Positions 1,751 through 10,139 of a DNA stretch of 64,000 nt are shown here, piece by piece (position 1 is the stretch's first letter; each line of letters opens with the position of its first letter). The notes under the pieces are model-generated. The model made no database searches and was not told the origin of the DNA. It saw only the letters and a list, made by a program, of their open reading frames with translations. Source of the DNA: Actinospica acidithermotolerans (GTDB lineage: Bacteria; Actinomycetota; Actinomycetes; Streptomycetales; Catenulisporaceae); assembly GCF_018139625.1 (NCBI RefSeq), contig NZ_JAGSOH010000030.1, forward strand, positions 1 to 64,000, written 5' to 3'. The position numbers and the translations under genes are program-made.

Positions 1751-2056
1751 ATGCCCGAAATGTATGTCGTCGTGCGCTGGCCGGACGGCGTCACGCAGCG
1801 CTGCTATTCCCCGTCCACAGTCGTCGCGGATTACTTCGCGGCGGGCGCTGAGTACGCTGTCGCGGAGTTCGTCGAGCGCAGCCGTACTGCGCTCGGGATC
1901 GCCGGGGAGCGGGTGCGGGACAAGTACGGCTTCTTATGTACCGGGGCTTCCGCGGAACTCGCCCGGATCGAGCAGGCCGCCGCCGCATATGCCCGTGTGG
2001 ACGGGGCGACGGTCACTGTCGAGGCCTTGGTCGATGCCGACGGGCGTGTCCGATGA
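1751..2056 (+). CDS. MSMEG_0570-family nitrogen starvation response protein
   Basis: A 101-residue protein with the family hallmarks VRWPDG near the start, CYSPS, an AEFVERSRTAL helix and ERVRDKYGF. The family is known only as part of nitrilase-1 (Nit1C) gene clusters, which are linked to nitrogen starvation and to growth on cyanide. Its biochemical role is unknown. The start at 1751 is preceded by GGAG at seven bases and fits the usual family length. It is the first gene of an operon, and its stop overlaps the next ATG (ATGA at 2053-2056). Confidence 0.85.
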   Translation: MPEMYVVVRWPDGVTQRCYSPSTVVADYFAAGAEYAVAEFVERSRTALGIAGERVRDKYGFLCTGASAELARIEQAAAAYARVDGATVTVEALVDADGRVR

Positions 2057-3372
2057 GTAGCGCCGTACGGCTTGCGGGGGCGCACTTTCCGGTGGCCGTG
2101 ATCGGCGGCGGGCAGGCGGGTTTGTCGGTGAGCTACTGCCTGCGCAAGCGCGCGGTCGAGCATGTCGTCATTGAGGCGAACGCGGTCGGGCATGAGTGGC
2201 GGAGTCGGCGGTGGGATTCGTTCTGCCTGGTCACGCCGAACTGGCAGTGCAAGCTTCCTGGCTACGCGTATCAGGGCACCGATCCCGATGGCTTCATGGT
2301 GCGCGAGGAGATCATCGGGTATCTCGAGGCGTACGCGGCGTCGTTCGCGCCGCCCCTGGTGGAGGGGGTTCGCGTCACGCGGCTGCGCCGGTCGCCGGCT
2401 GGCGGGGTGTTCGAAGTCTCGACGAGTGCGGGCGACCTCACGGCGGACCAGGTAGTGGTGGCGACCGGGCCGTATCACACGAGGTTTGTGCCCGCCCTCG
2501 CTCAGCGCCTGCCCGACGGCGTTGAGCAGGTCCACTCGTCCGAGTACCGCAACGCCGAGCAGTTGCCGCCGGGCGCGGTGCTGGTGGTCGGCACGGGGCA
2601 GTCGGGCTGCCAGATCGCGGAGGACCTGCATCTCGCGGGGCGGCCGGTGCATCTGGCGGTGGGCAGCGCGCCCCGGGTCGCGCGGTTCTACCGCGGGCGG
2701 GACTGCGTGGCGTGGCTCGACGAGATGGGCCACTACCGGAAGAGTATCGATGAGTTCGATGACGCGGCCGCCGTGCGGATGCGGGTGAACCACTACGTGA
2801 CCGGCCGCGACGGTGGGCGCGATATCGACCTGCGGGCCTTCGCGAGAGACGGAATGCGGCTGTACGGACGGTTGACTGGGGTCAGCGGGACCCGGCTGGA
2901 GTTCGCCGACGATCTGAAGGTGAACCTCGATCACGCGGACGCGGTTGCCGAGAGCATCAAGGACGCGATCGACGCGCACATCGCCGCGCAGAGCATCGAC
3001 GCGCCGGCGGAGGCGCGCTACGTGCCCGTGTGGGAACCCGGTGACCAGGCGGGCGAAATCGACCTGGTCGAGGCTGGGATCACCTCCGTCGTATGGAGCA
3101 CCGGTTTCCGGCGGGATCACCGGTGGATCGAGGTTCCGGTGTTCGACGGGCGGGGCTATCCGATGCACTGGCGTGGCGTGACGGGTACGCCCGGGCTCTA
3201 CTTCCTCGGTCTGCCCTGGCAGTACTCCTGGGGATCGGGCCGCTTCGAGGCCGTGGGCCGAGATGCGGCTTTCCTCGCCGACCACATCGAGGCCTCGCGC
3301 CGCATGGCGGACGTGTGCGGCACACTCACCGGCGCTCCTACCGGGCTCACCGCCGCTCTGCCGGTCGGCTGA
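2053..3372 (+). CDS. MSMEG_0569-family flavin-dependent oxidoreductase
   Basis: A 439-residue flavoprotein monooxygenase-like enzyme. It has an N-terminal FAD-binding G18-x-G20-x2-G23 (VIGGGQAGLS) and a second Rossmann motif GTGQSG near residue 180 for NAD(P)H. The layout resembles class B flavin monooxygenases. The substrate is unknown. The family occurs in Nit1C clusters beside nitrilase and radical SAM genes, so a role in processing a nitrile- or cyanide-derived compound is inferred. It is translationally coupled to the gene before it. Confidence 0.9.
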   Translation: MSSAVRLAGAHFPVAVIGGGQAGLSVSYCLRKRAVEHVVIEANAVGHEWRSRRWDSFCLVTPNWQCKLPGYAYQGTDPDGFMVREEIIGYLEAYAASFAPPLVEGVRVTRLRRSPAGGVFEVSTSAGDLTADQVVVATGPYHTRFVPALAQRLPDGVEQVHSSEYRNAEQLPPGAVLVVGTGQSGCQIAEDLHLAGRPVHLAVGSAPRVARFYRGRDCVAWLDEMGHYRKSIDEFDDAAAVRMRVNHYVTGRDGGRDIDLRAFARDGMRLYGRLTGVSGTRLEFADDLKVNLDHADAVAESIKDAIDAHIAAQSIDAPAEARYVPVWEPGDQAGEIDLVEAGITSVVWSTGFRRDHRWIEVPVFDGRGYPMHWRGVTGTPGLYFLGLPWQYSWGSGRFEAVGRDAAFLADHIEASRRMADVCGTLTGAPTGLTAALPVG

Positions 3373-3389
3373 AAGGACTGCGAGATCCC

Positions 3390-4205
3390 ATGGTTTTCGA
3401 CGCGCATCGGCACATCGGGGTTCTGCCCGCGTATCCGTTCTACGGCGGGCCGCCGGTGAACCCGGACGTCACGGCTCGTGCCACGATCAAGCAGCTGATC
3501 TCAGACCTCGATGCCGAGGGCACCGAGCGCGCGCTGGTCATCCCGAATTACGGCGTGCCGGACCCGGCGATCGCGTTCTCCTTCAACGAGTTGGCGCTCG
3601 AGGCCGCGCAGCGCGACGACCGGATCCGGGCCGGGCTGTGGGTCTCGCCGCGGCCGGATGATTCGGCGCGCACGGCGGCGGCGCTGGCGCTGGCCGGAGA
3701 GCCGGGAGTCAGGGTTCTGAAGCTGAGCTTCCTGCTCGGCGGACGGGTCACGGATCCGGCCTGCCGCCCGCAGCTCGATCTGATCTTCGCCGCGGCCGAG
3801 CGGCACGGCCTGGTGGTGCACGTGCACACCTCGCCCGGCGCGGCTTCGGACATCGACGAGGTGGGGCACCTCGTCGACTGGTACGCCGACCGTGTGCCGG
3901 TGCACCTGGTGCACTTCGGCGGCGGGATGAGCGGCCACATCAAGCTCGCCGGCTCGCGGTTCTTCGACTGGATCGCGGCCGGCAAGCGGGTCTACACGGA
4001 CCTGTCCTGGGCCATCGGCTTCGCGCCGGGTTGGCTGGCCCGGGAGATCGAACGGCGCGGCATCGGCCACGACCGGGTGTTGTTCGCCAGCGACCAGCCC
4101 TGGGGCGACTACGCGGGCGAGCACGCGCGGATGGCCGCGGCGTTCGGCGACGGGGAACTGGCCCGGTTCGCGTTCCAGGACACCTTCGCCGCGCTCTACG
4201 ACTGA
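3390..4205 (+). CDS. Amidohydrolase-family metal-dependent hydrolase
   Basis: A 271-residue TIM-barrel hydrolase of the amidohydrolase-2 type. The metal-binding H6-x-H8 (FDAHRHIG) lies at the N terminus; later His in VVHVHTS and LVHFGGG and the final Asp in FASDQPWG complete the usual metal site. The start at 3390 puts HxH where the family has it. Within the nitrilase operon it could hydrolyse an amide or cyclic intermediate; this is inferred from family and context only. It is seventeen bases downstream of the flavoprotein gene. Confidence 0.8.
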   Translation: MVFDAHRHIGVLPAYPFYGGPPVNPDVTARATIKQLISDLDAEGTERALVIPNYGVPDPAIAFSFNELALEAAQRDDRIRAGLWVSPRPDDSARTAAALALAGEPGVRVLKLSFLLGGRVTDPACRPQLDLIFAAAERHGLVVHVHTSPGAASDIDEVGHLVDWYADRVPVHLVHFGGGMSGHIKLAGSRFFDWIAAGKRVYTDLSWAIGFAPGWLAREIERRGIGHDRVLFASDQPWGDYAGEHARMAAAFGDGELARFAFQDTFAALYD

Positions 4206-4232
4206 CCCTCGACACTCCCAAGGAGAGAGAGC

Positions 4233-4748
4233 ATGACCGTCGAACTGTCCGACATCGAGACCAAGTCTCTGAACGAGATCCCGCACCCCTCGCTGCCCGA
4301 GGGATCGACGATCTACGGGTCCACCAAAGTCTTCCCTGACTACCAGGCGGAGGACGGCGAGACCTACTTCACCCTCGTGCACGGCATCGCGCACGAGTCC
4401 TCCGTCAGCTTCGTCGCCGTGCTGCAGGCCACCCGGGCACTGCGCAAGGGTTTCGAGTCGGCGATCTACTTCTACGGGCCCGGCTCGCTCAACTGCCTTG
4501 CCACCCGCGGTTTCCCGACCACCGGCAACTCCGCGTTCCCGGGCGAGCACAACATCAACAACCAGCTCAAGACCTTCATCGCGGAGGGCGGCAAGGTCTA
4601 CTGCTGCCGCTTCGGCCTCTCGCTGCACGGCGCCCGCGAGGAGGACCTGATCGAGGGCGTCATCCCGACCCACCCGCTGGACGTGCAGGACGCGATCATC
4701 CACTACGCGCGTAAGGGCGCGATCATCAACTCCACCTACCAGCTGTAA
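4233..4748 (+). CDS. MSMEG_0572/Sll0783-family nitrogen starvation response protein
   Basis: A 171-residue protein with no known catalytic motif. The blocks HPSLPEGSTIYGSTKVFPDY, GFESAIYFYGPGSLNCLATRGFP and EHNINNQLKTFI match the family found in cyanobacterial and actinobacterial nitrilase clusters, whose expression rises on nitrogen starvation. The biochemical function is unknown. The start follows AGGAGAGAG. It precedes the radical SAM gene by eleven bases that contain that gene's Shine-Dalgarno sequence. Confidence 0.88.
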   Translation: MTVELSDIETKSLNEIPHPSLPEGSTIYGSTKVFPDYQAEDGETYFTLVHGIAHESSVSFVAVLQATRALRKGFESAIYFYGPGSLNCLATRGFPTTGNSAFPGEHNINNQLKTFIAEGGKVYCCRFGLSLHGAREEDLIEGVIPTHPLDVQDAIIHYARKGAIINSTYQL

Positions 4749-4759
4749 GGAGGTGCGAC

Positions 4760-5848
4760 GTGAGCGTTGGCACCCAGTCTTCGAGCGCGGTGGACGTGCG
4801 CGTCCTGACCCGGGCCGAACTCGCGCTGCACGGTGTGCGCGTCGAGGCCCCGGTGCGGCGGCCGGACGGAGCAGGACCCAGCGACGACGGCCATGTGCTG
4901 GTCGACGGTGCCAACGCCGCGTTGCCCACCAACCCGCAGAGCCCTTATTCGGTGCGCGAGGGCCGGGTGTGGCTTGGTGAGCAGGACACCGGCCTGACCC
5001 TCATCCCCGTCACCCGGCCCCGCTTCTACGATCTGAGCACGGCCGATGGCGTGCCCTACGAGCACATCGCCCGGCTGCACGGAGCGGACGTGCTGGCCAC
5101 CACCGTCGTGCAGACCTGCATCCGCTACGAGGAGTCCGAGCGCTGCCGCTTCTGCACGATCGAGGAGTCGCTGCGCGCCGGGGCGACGGTCGGCGCGAAG
5201 ACGCCCGCGCAGCTCGCCGAGGTCGCCGAGGCGGCCGTCCGCTTGGACGGGGTGCGGCAGATGGTGATGACCACCGGCACCACCACGGGTCCCGATCGCG
5301 GTGCTCGGGCACTGGCCAGGTCGGTGCGCGCGGTCCTGGAGGCGGTGCCAGGCCTGCCGATTCAGGTTCAGTGCGAGCCGCCGGGCGACCTGCAGTGGAT
5401 CAACGCCCTGTACGAGGCGGGCGCGACCTCGATCGGCATTCATGTAGAAGCGCTCGACGACGCGGTGCGAAGCCGCTGGATGCCGGGCAAGTCGCGGGTG
5501 CCGATGACAGAGTACGAGGCAGCGTGGGACGAGGCGGTTCGCGTGTTCGGCCGCAACCGCGTCTCGACGTACCTGCTGGTCGGCCTGGGCGAGAACCCCG
5601 ACGAACTGATCGCGGGCGCCGGACGGCTGATCGAGCGCGGAGTGTACCCGTTCGTCGTGCCGTTCCGGCCGATGCGCGGCACGCTCGCCGCACGCGACGG
5701 CATACCCGCACCGAGCGCCGAGCTGCTGCGATACGTGACCGAAGGCGTCGCGGTGAAGCTGCGTGCGGCCGGGATGACCGGCGCGGATCAGAAGGCCGGA
5801 TGCGCGGCGTGCGGCGCGTGCAGCGTGCTGCAGAGCGCGGGAGGCTGA
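4760..5848 (+). CDS. MSMEG_0568-family radical SAM protein
   Basis: A 362-residue radical SAM enzyme, related in overall shape to biotin synthase. The iron-sulfur ligands are probably C120, C129 and C132, giving CX8CX2C instead of the textbook CX3CX2C. A second cysteine set, C348-x2-C351-x2-C354, sits near the C terminus and could hold an auxiliary cluster or metal. The GTG start is preceded by AAGGAGGTG. The family is restricted to nitrilase-1 clusters, so it probably makes or alters the compound the nitrilase acts on. The reaction is unknown. Confidence 0.9.
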   Translation: MSVGTQSSSAVDVRVLTRAELALHGVRVEAPVRRPDGAGPSDDGHVLVDGANAALPTNPQSPYSVREGRVWLGEQDTGLTLIPVTRPRFYDLSTADGVPYEHIARLHGADVLATTVVQTCIRYEESERCRFCTIEESLRAGATVGAKTPAQLAEVAEAAVRLDGVRQMVMTTGTTTGPDRGARALARSVRAVLEAVPGLPIQVQCEPPGDLQWINALYEAGATSIGIHVEALDDAVRSRWMPGKSRVPMTEYEAAWDEAVRVFGRNRVSTYLLVGLGENPDELIAGAGRLIERGVYPFVVPFRPMRGTLAARDGIPAPSAELLRYVTEGVAVKLRAAGMTGADQKAGCAACGACSVLQSAGG

Positions 5849-5849
5849 C

Positions 5850-7289
5850 TTGTACCTCGACGGTACCGCGTTGCCCGCTGCGGCGGATCCGGTGATCGAC
5901 ATCCTGGCGCTGCTCGGTGATCGCAGCACACTGGCCCGGGTGCCGGACTTCCGCATCGAGCAGGCACAGGACGCGGCGTCCGTCGCCGCCTACCGCGAGC
6001 TGCGGCGCGAGATCTTCGTGCACGAGCAGGGGCTGTTCGACGGCCACGACCTCGATGCACCCGACGAGGACCCGCGAACGATCGTGCTGGTGGCGCGGGA
6101 CCGCAGCGGTCGTATCGTCGGCGGCGTACGGCTCGGGCCCGCGCTCGACGGCCCGGATATCGGCTGGTGGCAGGGCGGACGGCTCGTTGTCGCGCCCGAC
6201 GCGCGTGGCCTGGGCGGACTCGGTTCCGCGTTGGTGCGTGCCGCGTGCGCACGCGCGGAGAGCGAGGGCGCGCTGCGCTTCGAGGCGCATGTCCAGGCCC
6301 GCAACGAAGGCCTCTTCACCCGAATCGGCTGGCAGCGCGTACGCCCCGTGACGATCGCGGGCGCCCCGCATGTTCTGATGCGCTGGCCGATCGGCCGTAT
6401 CAGCGCTCTGGCCGCGGCGACGAAGGCGCGGCTCGGCACCGTGCTGAGCGCGCTGCCACAGGGGCTCGGCGGCGCGGGCTACGTCGGCGACGACGGCGCC
6501 CCCGTGCCGGGTACAGACGTCATCGCGGCCTGCGACGCGATCGTACCCGCCATGGTCGAGCGCGATCCGGAGTGGGCCGGCTGGTGCGCGGTCCTGGTCA
6601 ACGTCAACGACCTGGCGGCGATGGGCGCACGTCCGGTCGGGCTGCTCGACGCGCTCGGCGCGAAGGACGCACGGCACGCCGGCCGCGTGCTCGAGGGCTT
6701 GGCGAGCGCCGCCGAGGCCTACGGGGTTCCCGTGCTCGGCGGCCACACCCAGTTCGGCGTTCCCGCCGCGCTGGCCGTGACCGCGCTCGGCCGCACCGCA
6801 CACCCGATTCCGGGCGGCGGCGGGCACGCGGGCCACGCGGTGCGGCTGACAGCCGACCTGCACGGCGGTTGGCGTTCCGGATACCGCGGGAGGCAGTGGG
6901 ATTCCACCTCGCGTCGCACCGGCGAAGACCTGCGCACGATGATCGGCTCGGTCGCGGCGGCGCGCCCGGCCGCGGCCAAGGACGTCTCGATGGCCGGGAT
7001 CGTCGGCACGCTCGGCATGCTGGCCGAGGCGAGCGGCTGCGCTGCGATCCTCGACGTGGCAGCCGTGCCGAAGCCGACGGGCGCCAGCATGGGCGACTGG
7101 CTTACCTGCTTTCCCGGCTTCGCGATGCTCACCGCTGACGAGCCGGACGCGCCTGCGCTCCCGGCCGGCCCCGCCGTGAGCGTGAGCTGCGGCGAGTTGG
7201 CCGAAGGCAAAGGTGTGGGGCTGCACTGGCCCGACGGAGAGATCACGGCCGCGCTCGACGGGCCGGTAACCGGAATGGGACCTGCATGA
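5850..7289 (+). CDS. MSMEG_0567-type GNAT acetyltransferase / AIR synthase-like fusion
   Basis: A 479-residue two-domain protein. Residues about 30-185 form a GNAT fold (acetyl-CoA loop VVAPDARGLGGLGSALV). Residues about 190-479 resemble the PurM/SelD/ThiL ATP-binding family (GDDGAPVPGTD and VNVNDLAAMGARP). In other bacteria the two halves are separate genes of the Nit1C cluster. The start is TTG with GGGAGG upstream, directly after the stop of the previous gene; a GTG further in is possible. Its stop overlaps the nitrilase start. The substrate is unknown. Confidence 0.85.
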   Translation: MYLDGTALPAAADPVIDILALLGDRSTLARVPDFRIEQAQDAASVAAYRELRREIFVHEQGLFDGHDLDAPDEDPRTIVLVARDRSGRIVGGVRLGPALDGPDIGWWQGGRLVVAPDARGLGGLGSALVRAACARAESEGALRFEAHVQARNEGLFTRIGWQRVRPVTIAGAPHVLMRWPIGRISALAAATKARLGTVLSALPQGLGGAGYVGDDGAPVPGTDVIAACDAIVPAMVERDPEWAGWCAVLVNVNDLAAMGARPVGLLDALGAKDARHAGRVLEGLASAAEAYGVPVLGGHTQFGVPAALAVTALGRTAHPIPGGGGHAGHAVRLTADLHGGWRSGYRGRQWDSTSRRTGEDLRTMIGSVAAARPAAAKDVSMAGIVGTLGMLAEASGCAAILDVAAVPKPTGASMGDWLTCFPGFAMLTADEPDAPALPAGPAVSVSCGELAEGKGVGLHWPDGEITAALDGPVTGMGPA

Positions 7290-8143
7290 GTACCCTGCGT
7301 ATGGCGGCCGTGGCCGCCGAGTTCGGCCGCGACCTGGAGGAGGACTTCGCGATCGCCGAGCGCCTGGTCAAGCAGGCCCGCGAGGACGGAGTCCGACTGC
7401 TCGCGCTGCCCGAGGCCTGCCTCGGCGGCTACCTGCTGAGTCTCGACGGCTACGCCGACCACGACGCCGGACCTCCCGCCCTCGCGCTCGACGGCCCGGA
7501 GATCCGTCGCTTGATCGCGCTCGCGCGGGACATGGTCGTCATCGCGGGCTACTGTGAGGACGGCGGCGACGGCACCCGGTACAACAGCGTCGTATGCGTC
7601 ACCGGCGACGGAGTCCTGGGCAACCACCGCAAGGTGCACCAGCCGCTCAGCGAGGACGCCAGCTACTCCTCCGGCGACCGCTTCCACGCCTTCGACACCC
7701 CGGCCGGCCGGATCGGCATGATGATCTGCTACGACAAGGCCTTCCCGGAGTCCGCCCGCGCCCTCGCCCTGGACGGGGCAGAAATCGGGGTCGTCGTCTC
7801 CGCGTGGCCCGGCGCGCGTACCAATCCGTCAGCCGACCTGGCCGAGGACCGCTGGAAGCGGCGCTTCGACCTGTTCGACCGGGCCCGCGCCCTGGAGAAC
7901 CAGATCGTCTGGCTCTCGGCGAACCAGGCGGGCACCTTCGGAACGCTACGCTTCGTGGGCAGCGCCAAGGTCGTCGACCCGGGCGGCGAGATCCTGGCCG
8001 ACACCGGCGTCGAGCCCGGACTCGCGATCGCGGAACTCGACGTCGCCCGCGCCCTGGAGACCGCCCGCCGTTCCATGGGCCACCTGCGCGACCGGCGCCC
8101 GCGGACCTACACCTACGACACGGGGGAAGCAGTCACCGCATGA
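7286..8143 (+). CDS. Nit1-type nitrilase (carbon-nitrogen hydrolase)
   Basis: A 285-residue nitrilase-superfamily enzyme with the full catalytic triad: E43 (LALPEACLGG), K116 (GNHRKVHQP) and C148 (MMICYDKAFPE), plus the supporting E123. It should hydrolyse a nitrile or amide in the cytosol; the natural substrate of the Nit1 branch is not settled. It starts inside the previous gene (ATGA) and ends inside the next, a divergent copy of itself, so both are made from one message at coupled levels. Confidence 0.93.
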   Translation: MSTLRMAAVAAEFGRDLEEDFAIAERLVKQAREDGVRLLALPEACLGGYLLSLDGYADHDAGPPALALDGPEIRRLIALARDMVVIAGYCEDGGDGTRYNSVVCVTGDGVLGNHRKVHQPLSEDASYSSGDRFHAFDTPAGRIGMMICYDKAFPESARALALDGAEIGVVVSAWPGARTNPSADLAEDRWKRRFDLFDRARALENQIVWLSANQAGTFGTLRFVGSAKVVDPGGEILADTGVEPGLAIAELDVARALETARRSMGHLRDRRPRTYTYDTGEAVTA

Positions 8144-8979
8144 CCAGCATCCGGATCGCGGCCGCGGCCGCCCACTTCGGCCGCGACCTGGAGTTCGACC
8201 TGGCCCGCATCGCCAAGCTGATCGCCGACGCCCGCGCCGAGGGCGCCGGCCTGCTGGTCTTGCCCGACGCGGCGCTCGGCGGCTACCTCGCCGACCTGCG
8301 CCACCCCGACCCGGACGCGCTCCCGCCCGCGCTCGCCCCGGACGACCCCCTCATCCAGCGTGTGGCCTCGCTCGCCGCCGAGATGGTGGTCTGCCTCGGC
8401 TACTGCGAGGACGGCGGCGACGCGGTGCACTACAACGCGGCGGTCTGCGTCAACGGAGACGGCGTGCTCGGCCGCCACCGCAAGGTGCACCTGCCCGCCG
8501 GGGAGATCGCCGCGTACGCTCCCGGCGACACGTTCGATGCGTTCGACACACCGGTCGGCCGGATCGGGATGCTCATCGACTACGACAAGACCTTCCCCGA
8601 ATCAGCCCGCTCCCTCGCCCTGGACGGAGCGCAGATCCTCGCGTGCCTCTCCGCCTGGCCCACCAGCATCACCAACCGGGCGCCGCGGATGGCCCAGGAC
8701 CGGCAGGCCAGGCTCTTCGACCTCTACGACCAGGCGCGCGCCGCCGAGAACCAGCTCGTGCTCGCCTCCTCCAACCAGACCGGCGCCATGGGCGGCATGC
8801 GCTTCCTCGGCCAGGCCAAGGTCGTCGGCCCCGGTGGCGAGATCCTCGCCCGCACTTGGGCCAAGGCCGGACTCGCCGTCGCCGAGGTCGATGCCGCGGC
8901 CGAGGTCGACCGCGCCCGCCGTATCCTGCACCACCTCGACGAACGCCGCCCTGACGTCTACCGGGAGAAGCGTTCGTGA
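8140..8979 (+). CDS. Nitrilase paralogue lacking catalytic Glu and Cys (probable pseudoenzyme)
   Basis: A 279-residue tandem copy of the preceding nitrilase that aligns almost without gaps. The catalytic Glu is D43 (LVLPDAALGG) and the catalytic Cys is D147 (MLIDYDKTFPE). The Lys is kept (K115 in GRHRKVHLP), as are the supporting E122 and the sequence around the active site. The frame is intact, codon use matches its neighbours and it is coupled to genes on both sides, so it is not decaying. Nitrilases assemble as dimers and spirals, so an inactive partner subunit or ligand sensor is a reasonable inference. Hydrolysis by the usual thioester route is impossible. Confidence 0.9.
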   Translation: MTSIRIAAAAAHFGRDLEFDLARIAKLIADARAEGAGLLVLPDAALGGYLADLRHPDPDALPPALAPDDPLIQRVASLAAEMVVCLGYCEDGGDAVHYNAAVCVNGDGVLGRHRKVHLPAGEIAAYAPGDTFDAFDTPVGRIGMLIDYDKTFPESARSLALDGAQILACLSAWPTSITNRAPRMAQDRQARLFDLYDQARAAENQLVLASSNQTGAMGGMRFLGQAKVVGPGGEILARTWAKAGLAVAEVDAAAEVDRARRILHHLDERRPDVYREKRS

Positions 8980-10139
8980 AAATCGCGCTGCTGTCCTACT
9001 CGACGAAGCCGCGCGGCGGAGTCGTGCACACCCTCGCCCTCGCCGAAGCCCTGGCCGCGCTCGGCGAGGACGTCACCGTCTGGAGCCTGGGACGCGGCGG
9101 CGACCAGGGCTTCTTCCGCCCCGTCGATCCGTCCGTACAGCTGCGCGTCGTTCCCTTCCCTGATGGATCGTCGGACGAGGGCGTCGGACCGCGCATCCTG
9201 CGCTCCATCGCCGTGCTGCGCAGGGCGTTCGAGTCGGCGTCGGCCGAATACGACATCGTCCACGCCCAGGACTGCATCAGCGCCAACGCCGCCATGCCGA
9301 GCGGCCCCTGCATCCGCACCGTCCACCACATCGACCACTTCACCACGCCCGAACTGGCCGCCTGCCACGAGCGCGCCATCGTCGAGCCCTACGCCCACCT
9401 ATGCGTTTCCCGCGCCGTGGCCGACGAGCTCGCTCACGGCTGGGGTATCAAGGCCGAAGTCATCCCCAACGGCGTCGCGTACGACCGCTTCGCCGCCACC
9501 GACCCTGCCGCCCGCGCCGCCCGGCGCGCGAAGCACGGCCGCTACATACTCACCGTGGGCGGCATCGAGCCCCGCAAAGGCTCGCTCGATCTCCTTGAGG
9601 CCTACGCCTTGCTGCGAGCCGCTCGCCCCGACGTCAGCCTCGTGATCGGCGGCGGCGAAACGCTCTTCGACTACCGCGACTACCGCGCCGCCTGGGAAGC
9701 CCGCGCGCGAGAGCTCAGCGTGCACCCGATCGTGCTCGGCCCCGTACCCGATGACGAGCTGCCGGCCCTCGTCGCCGGCGCCGACGCGTTCGCGTTCCCC
9801 TCCACCAAGGAAGGCTTCGGCCTCGCCGCCATGGAGGCGCTCGCCGCGGGCACCCCGCTCGTCGTACGCGACCTGCCCGTCCTGCGCGAGGTCTTCGCCG
9901 ACGCCGCCCGCTTCGCCGCCACCGTCGACGACTTTGCCGCCGAACTGCACGACGCCCTCGCGGTCGAGGACCCCACGAAGCGGGACGCCGGACGAATCCT
10001 CGCCGCCCGGCACACCTGGACCGCAGCCGCACACCGCCACCTCGACTTCTATCGCACGCTCGCCGACGGCGTCGGTAGAGGTAGTCCGCGATACGCCAGA
10101 CCGGCTGATCCGCGAAGCGCGCTCCCCACCCTGGAGTAG
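8976..10139 (+). CDS. MSMEG_0565-family GT4-type glycosyltransferase
   Basis: A 387-residue GT-B glycosyltransferase. The C-terminal nucleotide-sugar half shows VGGIEPRKGSLDLLEAY and the E279-x7-E287 motif in KEGFGLAAMEALA, typical of retaining GT4 enzymes. The family is tied to the nitrilase-1 cluster, which suggests that a glycosylated product is made there; donor and acceptor are unknown. The GTG start overlaps the stop of the nitrilase paralogue (GTGA). It is the last gene of the operon, and no clear terminator hairpin follows. Confidence 0.9.
   Translation: MKIALLSYSTKPRGGVVHTLALAEALAALGEDVTVWSLGRGGDQGFFRPVDPSVQLRVVPFPDGSSDEGVGPRILRSIAVLRRAFESASAEYDIVHAQDCISANAAMPSGPCIRTVHHIDHFTTPELAACHERAIVEPYAHLCVSRAVADELAHGWGIKAEVIPNGVAYDRFAATDPAARAARRAKHGRYILTVGGIEPRKGSLDLLEAYALLRAARPDVSLVIGGGETLFDYRDYRAAWEARARELSVHPIVLGPVPDDELPALVAGADAFAFPSTKEGFGLAAMEALAAGTPLVVRDLPVLREVFADAARFAATVDDFAAELHDALAVEDPTKRDAGRILAARHTWTAAAHRHLDFYRTLADGVGRGSPRYARPADPRSALPTLE

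Follow-up and report, generated by a model that had tools for sequence, protein, structure and literature searches.

A conserved nitrilase-superfamily paralogue without the catalytic Cys and Glu in an actinobacterial Nit1C-like (gpr) gene cluster

The window, the whole stretch of 64,000 nt analysed here (Actinospica acidithermotolerans, contig NZ_JAGSOH010000030.1), carries a single tightly packed cluster on the + strand at positions 1751-10139, whose genes and family matches are as follows.

1751..2056, + strand: MSMEG_0570 family nitrogen starvation response protein, which opens the cluster (NCBIfam TIGR04042, 125.9 bits, cut-off 79.85)
2053..3372, + strand: FAD, MSMEG_0569 family flavin-dependent oxidoreductase (TIGR04046, 649.8 bits, cut-off 498.35)
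3390..4205, + strand: AHY, Amidohydrolase_2 family protein (Pfam PF04909, 62.8 bits; start codon by inspection)
4233..4748, + strand: MSMEG_0572/Sll0783 family protein (TIGR04044, 256.4 bits)
4760..5848, + strand: rSAM, MSMEG_0568 family radical SAM protein (TIGR04043, 501.1 bits)
5850..7289, + strand: GNAT/AIRS, MSMEG_0567 fused GNAT and AIR-synthase-like protein (TIGR04045, TIGR04050)
7286..8143, + strand: ACT, carbon-nitrogen hydrolase with intact E43-K116-E123-C148 (PF00795, 148.9 bits)
8140..8979, + strand: DEAD, putative pseudo-nitrilase paralogue with D43-K115-E122-D147 (PF00795, 124.3 bits)
8266..8268, + strand: codon 43 of DEAD (Asp), the site of the catalytic Glu
8578..8580, + strand: codon 147 of DEAD (GAC, Asp), the site of the nucleophilic Cys
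8976..10139, + strand: GT, MSMEG_0565 family glycosyltransferase (TIGR04047, 453.9 bits, cut-off 259.85), starting within the DEAD stop codon

The gene set of Nit1C clusters, namely 0572, radical SAM, GNAT, AIRS, 0570 and flavoprotein, is complete at 1751-7289 (TIGR04044, TIGR04043, TIGR04045, TIGR04050, TIGR04042 and TIGR04046), and every family of MSMEG_0565-0572, the gpr operon, is represented in the window. The first-pass annotation had called the locus a nitrilase-1 operon. The neighbouring genes are indeed of the Nit1C type, but the active enzyme is not a subfamily-1 nitrilase: against the model of that subfamily (TIGR04048, Nit6803; cut-off 502.6 bits), ACT scored 28.2 bits and DEAD 26.7 bits. 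The GNAT and AIR-synthase-like domains fused in 5850-7289 are encoded by separate genes (Sll0786/Sll0787 type) in the inspected proteobacterial clusters. AHY, which matched no NCBIfam model, is a regular member of actinomycete clusters and is missing from the mycobacterial order. One crude GTNAC-n6-GNAAC scan upstream of 1751 revealed no GlnR box.

DEAD is encoded by an intact frame of 279 codons with an ATG start, which overlaps the upstream ACT gene by ATGA (8140-8143) and the downstream GT gene by GTGA (8976-8979). In BLASTP, the two hydrolase-like proteins are identical at 161 of 275 positions (59%, 297 bits) with one single-residue gap, and the CN_hydrolase domain (PF00795, cut-off 23.2 bits) spans the full length of DEAD. 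D43, K115, E122 and D147 of DEAD align with E43, K116, E123 and C148 of ACT; thus, D43-K115-D147 stands in DEAD in place of the Glu-Lys-Cys catalytic set of active nitrilases and amidases. In all these respects, i.e., full-length paralogy with the gene at 7286, residue numbering, overlaps and intact frame, the first-pass annotation was accurate. The codons of Cys (TGC/TGT) and Asp (GAC/GAT) are two bases apart, and the same residues are found in independent assemblies at 87-93% identity, indicating that the Asp residues are not a local error. DEAD is therefore a member of the nitrilase (carbon-nitrogen hydrolase) superfamily by descent and, judged by its sequence, a pseudoenzyme.

A scan of GTDB genomes yielded 80 loci with a DEAD orthologue of 68-93% identity, in Streptomyces, Amycolatopsis, Actinoplanes-type organisms, Microbispora, Saccharothrix, Kribbella, Nocardioides, Aeromicrobium, Rhodococcus and others; the closest match, from a Catenulispora MAG, is 93% identical. 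D147 is present at all 80 loci, and an E-K-E-C partner lies in the same cluster at 79 of them, the 80th being cut by the contig end. One locus (L088, contig CAJCIY010000149.1), labelled Candidatus Melainabacteria, harbors an actinomycete-type cluster with both copies, which is probably a binning error and possibly a transfer. Adding loci from further genomes gave 111 distinct DEAD and 122 ACT sequences from Actinomycetota. All 122 ACT sequences retain E-K-E-C. Among the 111 DEAD sequences, D147 and K115 are invariant and E122 occurs in 110, and none has Glu at position 43 or the Glu and Cys of an active homologue. The earlier proposal of a conserved D/K/D set thus held for K115 and D147 but not for position 43, which is Asp in 103 sequences and Gly (4), His (2), Tyr (1) or Gln (1) in the other eight. 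These counts define K115/E122/D147 as the constrained set, and little constraint is left on the former general base. The motifs of the pocket are preserved in DEAD as well.

Conservation is slightly higher in DEAD than in ACT, with a mean column entropy of 0.82 vs 1.00 and a mean distance of 0.33 vs 0.40. The median dN/dS over 3047 pairs, by a simple counting method, is 0.277 for DEAD and 0.276 for ACT. Purifying selection on DEAD is strong and equal to that on ACT, which bears out the suggestion of a conserved, non-decaying pseudoenzyme. Besides D147, T151 and L192 are fixed in all 111 DEAD sequences, and K242 (110/111) and W240 (94/111) are nearly so; ACT and single-copy outgroups seldom or never carry these five residues.

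We inferred the origin of DEAD from a quick maximum-likelihood tree of 133 rows. All DEAD sequences form one clade (SH-aLRT 94) that is sister to the cluster-borne ACT, and both fall within a cluster-borne lineage with 100% support, with the stand-alone E-K-E-C paralogues outside. The DEAD/ACT label changes once on the tree, and no revertant with a restored Cys was seen among the sampled DEAD orthologues. This topology points to a single duplication inside the cluster and a single loss of the Cys. The deepest DEAD member, from another class (G312), carries D-K-D-D, and orthologues with Asp147 span at least two classes.

To describe the distribution of DEAD, 395 genomes of the class were sampled, 55 of which have the radical SAM gene of the cluster. 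Among the 50 genomes with a hydrolase-type cluster, 34 carry both ACT and DEAD, 16 carry ACT only, and none carries DEAD only; hence DEAD is accompanied by ACT in 34 of 34 genomes. The cluster occurs in three gene orders: FAD-AHY-0572-rSAM-GNAT/AIRS-ACT-DEAD-GT; AHY-0572-rSAM-GNAT/AIRS-ACT-0570-FAD-DEAD-GT; and the mycobacterial type, 0572-ACT-0570-FAD-rSAM-GNAT/AIRS-DEAD-GT, seen in G085, G269, G663 and G618 and in genomes of family f4. The expectation of a tandem pair in related clusters was therefore right as to the constant company of ACT but not as to adjacency, which is seen at 70 of 79 loci; nocardioid, rhodococcal and mycobacterial clusters no longer have it. The most constant neighbour of DEAD is the GT gene, immediately downstream in all three orders: fewer than 60 bp separate the two at 74 of 76 loci, and GT directly follows DEAD at 24 of 25 sampled loci of the class. 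GT itself is present in all 50 genomes, whether or not DEAD is. Clusters L235-L250 from other actinobacterial groups contain radical SAM and GNAT genes (with 0572, AHY and GT in some) and no carbon-nitrogen hydrolase was detected in their vicinity, which suggests that the pathway may not always include the nitrilase.

The absence of DEAD coincides with the loss of the MSMEG_0569 flavoprotein and not with a change in ACT. In the 50 genomes, both FAD and DEAD are present in 32, neither in 14, FAD only in two and DEAD only in two (Fisher p 1.4e-8). On the tree, DEAD changes state only 2 times; the co-loss is thus essentially a single event in one family, and the raw association does not represent independent events. 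Twelve clusters of the frankia-like family f94 lack 0570, the flavoprotein and DEAD. In the four that were inspected, the space between ACT and GT is taken, in place of FAD and DEAD, by a large unrelated flavin monooxygenase; its type (Trp_halogenase / FAD_binding_3) comes from a family search on one of them (L202). The inspected proteobacterial clusters contain one Nit6803 nitrilase and no DEAD, together with the flavoprotein and/or GT.

The AlphaFold2 model of DEAD (94 rows; pLDDT 94.8, pTM 0.93) has a standard nitrilase fold. Its best matches in the PDB are all nitrilases or amidases (3ivz, 6ypa and 5h8j; TM-scores of 0.81-0.86 by query, 0.83 to 3ivz), and the closest folds are those of PH0642-type amidases and N-carbamoylputrescine amidase. 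Helix 188-204 belongs to the dimer surface of the superfamily. Functional members of the nitrilase superfamily have a basic dimer in common (PMC4700190), and closed lids are located between adjacent protomers (PMC13275509). Moreover, dead paralogues activate their oligomeric sister enzymes in the cases of the AdoMetDC prozyme (PMC5201418) and deoxyhypusine synthase (PMC3663545). On these grounds, ACT suggests itself as the partner of DEAD and a heteromer of the two is plausible.

We tentatively favor, at somewhat less than even confidence, that DEAD is a non-hydrolytic, prozyme-like accessory subunit of the actinobacterial Nit1C-like (gpr) pathway, pairing most likely with ACT. On this view, the carbon-nitrogen hydrolase of the cluster was duplicated once, and the copy that became DEAD lost the Cys-Glu chemistry a single time and was then retained as an accessory part of the pathway. 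Hydrolysis of a nitrile or amide by the superfamily mechanism is likely ruled out, and the carboxylate of D147 at the former thiolate site, paired with K115, likely makes a closed or ligand-holding pocket. DEAD may then work in trans through the conserved dimer surface of the family, its C-terminal arm serving as a lid for the ACT subunit or its pocket as a sensor of an intermediate, coordinated with the flavin and glycosyl-transfer reactions of the neighbouring genes. Physical pairing with ACT is the weakest step and, taken on its own, is possible but rather less than probable. Several observations speak against the accessory subunit. Adjacency to ACT is incomplete while that to GT is nearly universal, and the absence of DEAD tracks the flavoprotein. 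ACT of the genomes without DEAD is nearly unchanged (two shifted sites) and thus has no visible dependence on DEAD. Partial mirror-tree and mutual-information/covariation signals between ACT and DEAD were no stronger than those of other cluster pairs; as other pairs give equal signals, these tests are uninformative on an ACT-DEAD contact.

The gene orders and the flavoprotein pattern would also be explained if DEAD, as a homodimer standing on its own, bound or escorted a ligand for the flavoprotein and GT steps, its old pocket holding an amide, nitrile or acid intermediate and passing it on while leaving ACT untouched. The position directly before GT, the shared occurrence with the flavoprotein and the replacement of both FAD and DEAD by an unrelated monooxygenase in the inspected f94 clusters all agree with such a role. 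However, the co-loss amounts to essentially one event, the flavoprotein occurs without DEAD in two genomes, proteobacterial clusters with the flavoprotein and/or GT do without DEAD, and GT is kept regardless of DEAD. We consider the escort role unlikely, though worth keeping in view. GT as the sole partner of DEAD is weakened by its presence in 50 of 50 genomes with or without DEAD, as well as in proteobacteria without DEAD.

It is more doubtful that DEAD is a neofunctionalised enzyme in which D147, K115 and E122 carry out a different reaction on a pathway intermediate, e.g., hydration, a lyase reaction or a transfer, with Asp as the nucleophile or acid/base. The practical invariance of these three residues, the fixation of new class-specific residues and a conservation at least equal to that of ACT, beyond the need of a mere scaffold, are what such an enzyme would show, but the general-base position takes D, G, H, Y and Q, and DEAD is predicted to have the overall fold of ordinary nitrilases. 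We know of no nitrilase-superfamily enzyme that acts through Asp. That K115-E122-D147 would be the working site of a new chemistry, converting what ACT produces in a different step and thereby completing the Nit1C/gpr pathway, seems improbable too. Finally, the absence of two catalytic residues from DEAD might have indicated a decaying duplicate or a sequencing error, which is refuted by the intact frame, the two-base codon change, the same Asp in 111 orthologues and a dN/dS as in ACT.

Whichever role DEAD plays, it represents a predicted pseudoenzyme branch of the nitrilase superfamily that is overlooked, widespread and anciently conserved; a search of the available literature library found no prior description of nitrilase pseudoenzymes. 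The database annotation of DEAD-type genes as amidase is probably wrong.

Among the known systems, the Nit1C cluster (Podar et al. 2005, PMC1199592) with its NitC/Nit6803 nitrilase shares the neighbours 0572, radical SAM, GNAT, AIRS, 0570, flavoprotein and sometimes a glycosyltransferase with the window. In contrast to the single Nit6803 gene of the inspected non-actinobacterial Nit1C clusters, which lack DEAD, the hydrolase in the window belongs to another carbon-nitrogen hydrolase branch (28 bits vs the TIGR04048 cut-off of 502.6) and is doubled. The closest characterised relatives in sequence and fold are AguB (N-carbamoylputrescine amidase; TIGR03381, 106.8 bits, below the cut-off) and the PH0642-type amidases, which, unlike DEAD, are hydrolases with the full Glu-Lys-Cys set. 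The trypanosome prozymes of AdoMetDC and deoxyhypusine synthase (PMC5201418; PMC3663545) likewise keep a dead paralogue beside an active sister, and DEAD too is found only with its active sister, in all 34 genomes that carry it and at 79 of 80 loci, the remaining locus being truncated. In the prozymes, which have another fold and come from other organisms, the heteromer and allosteric activation are proven, whereas for DEAD both would be candidate features.

The third gene order is identical to that of the gpr operon of M. smegmatis (MSMEG_0572-0565), in which DEAD takes the place of MSMEG_0566 and ACT the place of MSMEG_0571. The window differs in that the ACT and DEAD genes lie side by side and the cluster has an additional amidohydrolase gene. 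All eight gpr genes are expressed together in biofilms, and the operon depends on GlnR, responds to nitrogen starvation and is required for the peroxide resistance of nitrogen-starved cells (PMC6039565). Under nitrogen starvation, MSMEG_0566 was up 8.9-fold and MSMEG_0571 48-fold (PMC4222082). MSMEG_0571 was proposed to read through UGA into MSMEG_0570/0569 as a selenoprotein (PMC6039565). In four mycobacterial-type clusters (L194, L198, L115 and L116), the hydrolase and the flavoprotein are apparently separate genes, with 0570 detected between them in L194. MSMEG_0566 has been named a putative aliphatic amidase that possibly contributes to nitrogen assimilation (PMC6039565), a name also used in two transcriptome papers, whereas the syntenic DEAD sequences have neither the catalytic Cys nor the Glu. 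If the correspondence of DEAD to MSMEG_0566 and of ACT to MSMEG_0571, suggested by gene order and family names, is right, MSMEG_0566 would not be an amidase of the usual kind, and the annotation of MSMEG_0566-type genes as amidases would need correcting. DEAD would then offer a clean way into the role of the Nit1C/gpr cluster, being one gene, accessible in a laboratory mycobacterium or streptomycete, with a known phenotype; it is in that pathway that most of the interest lies.
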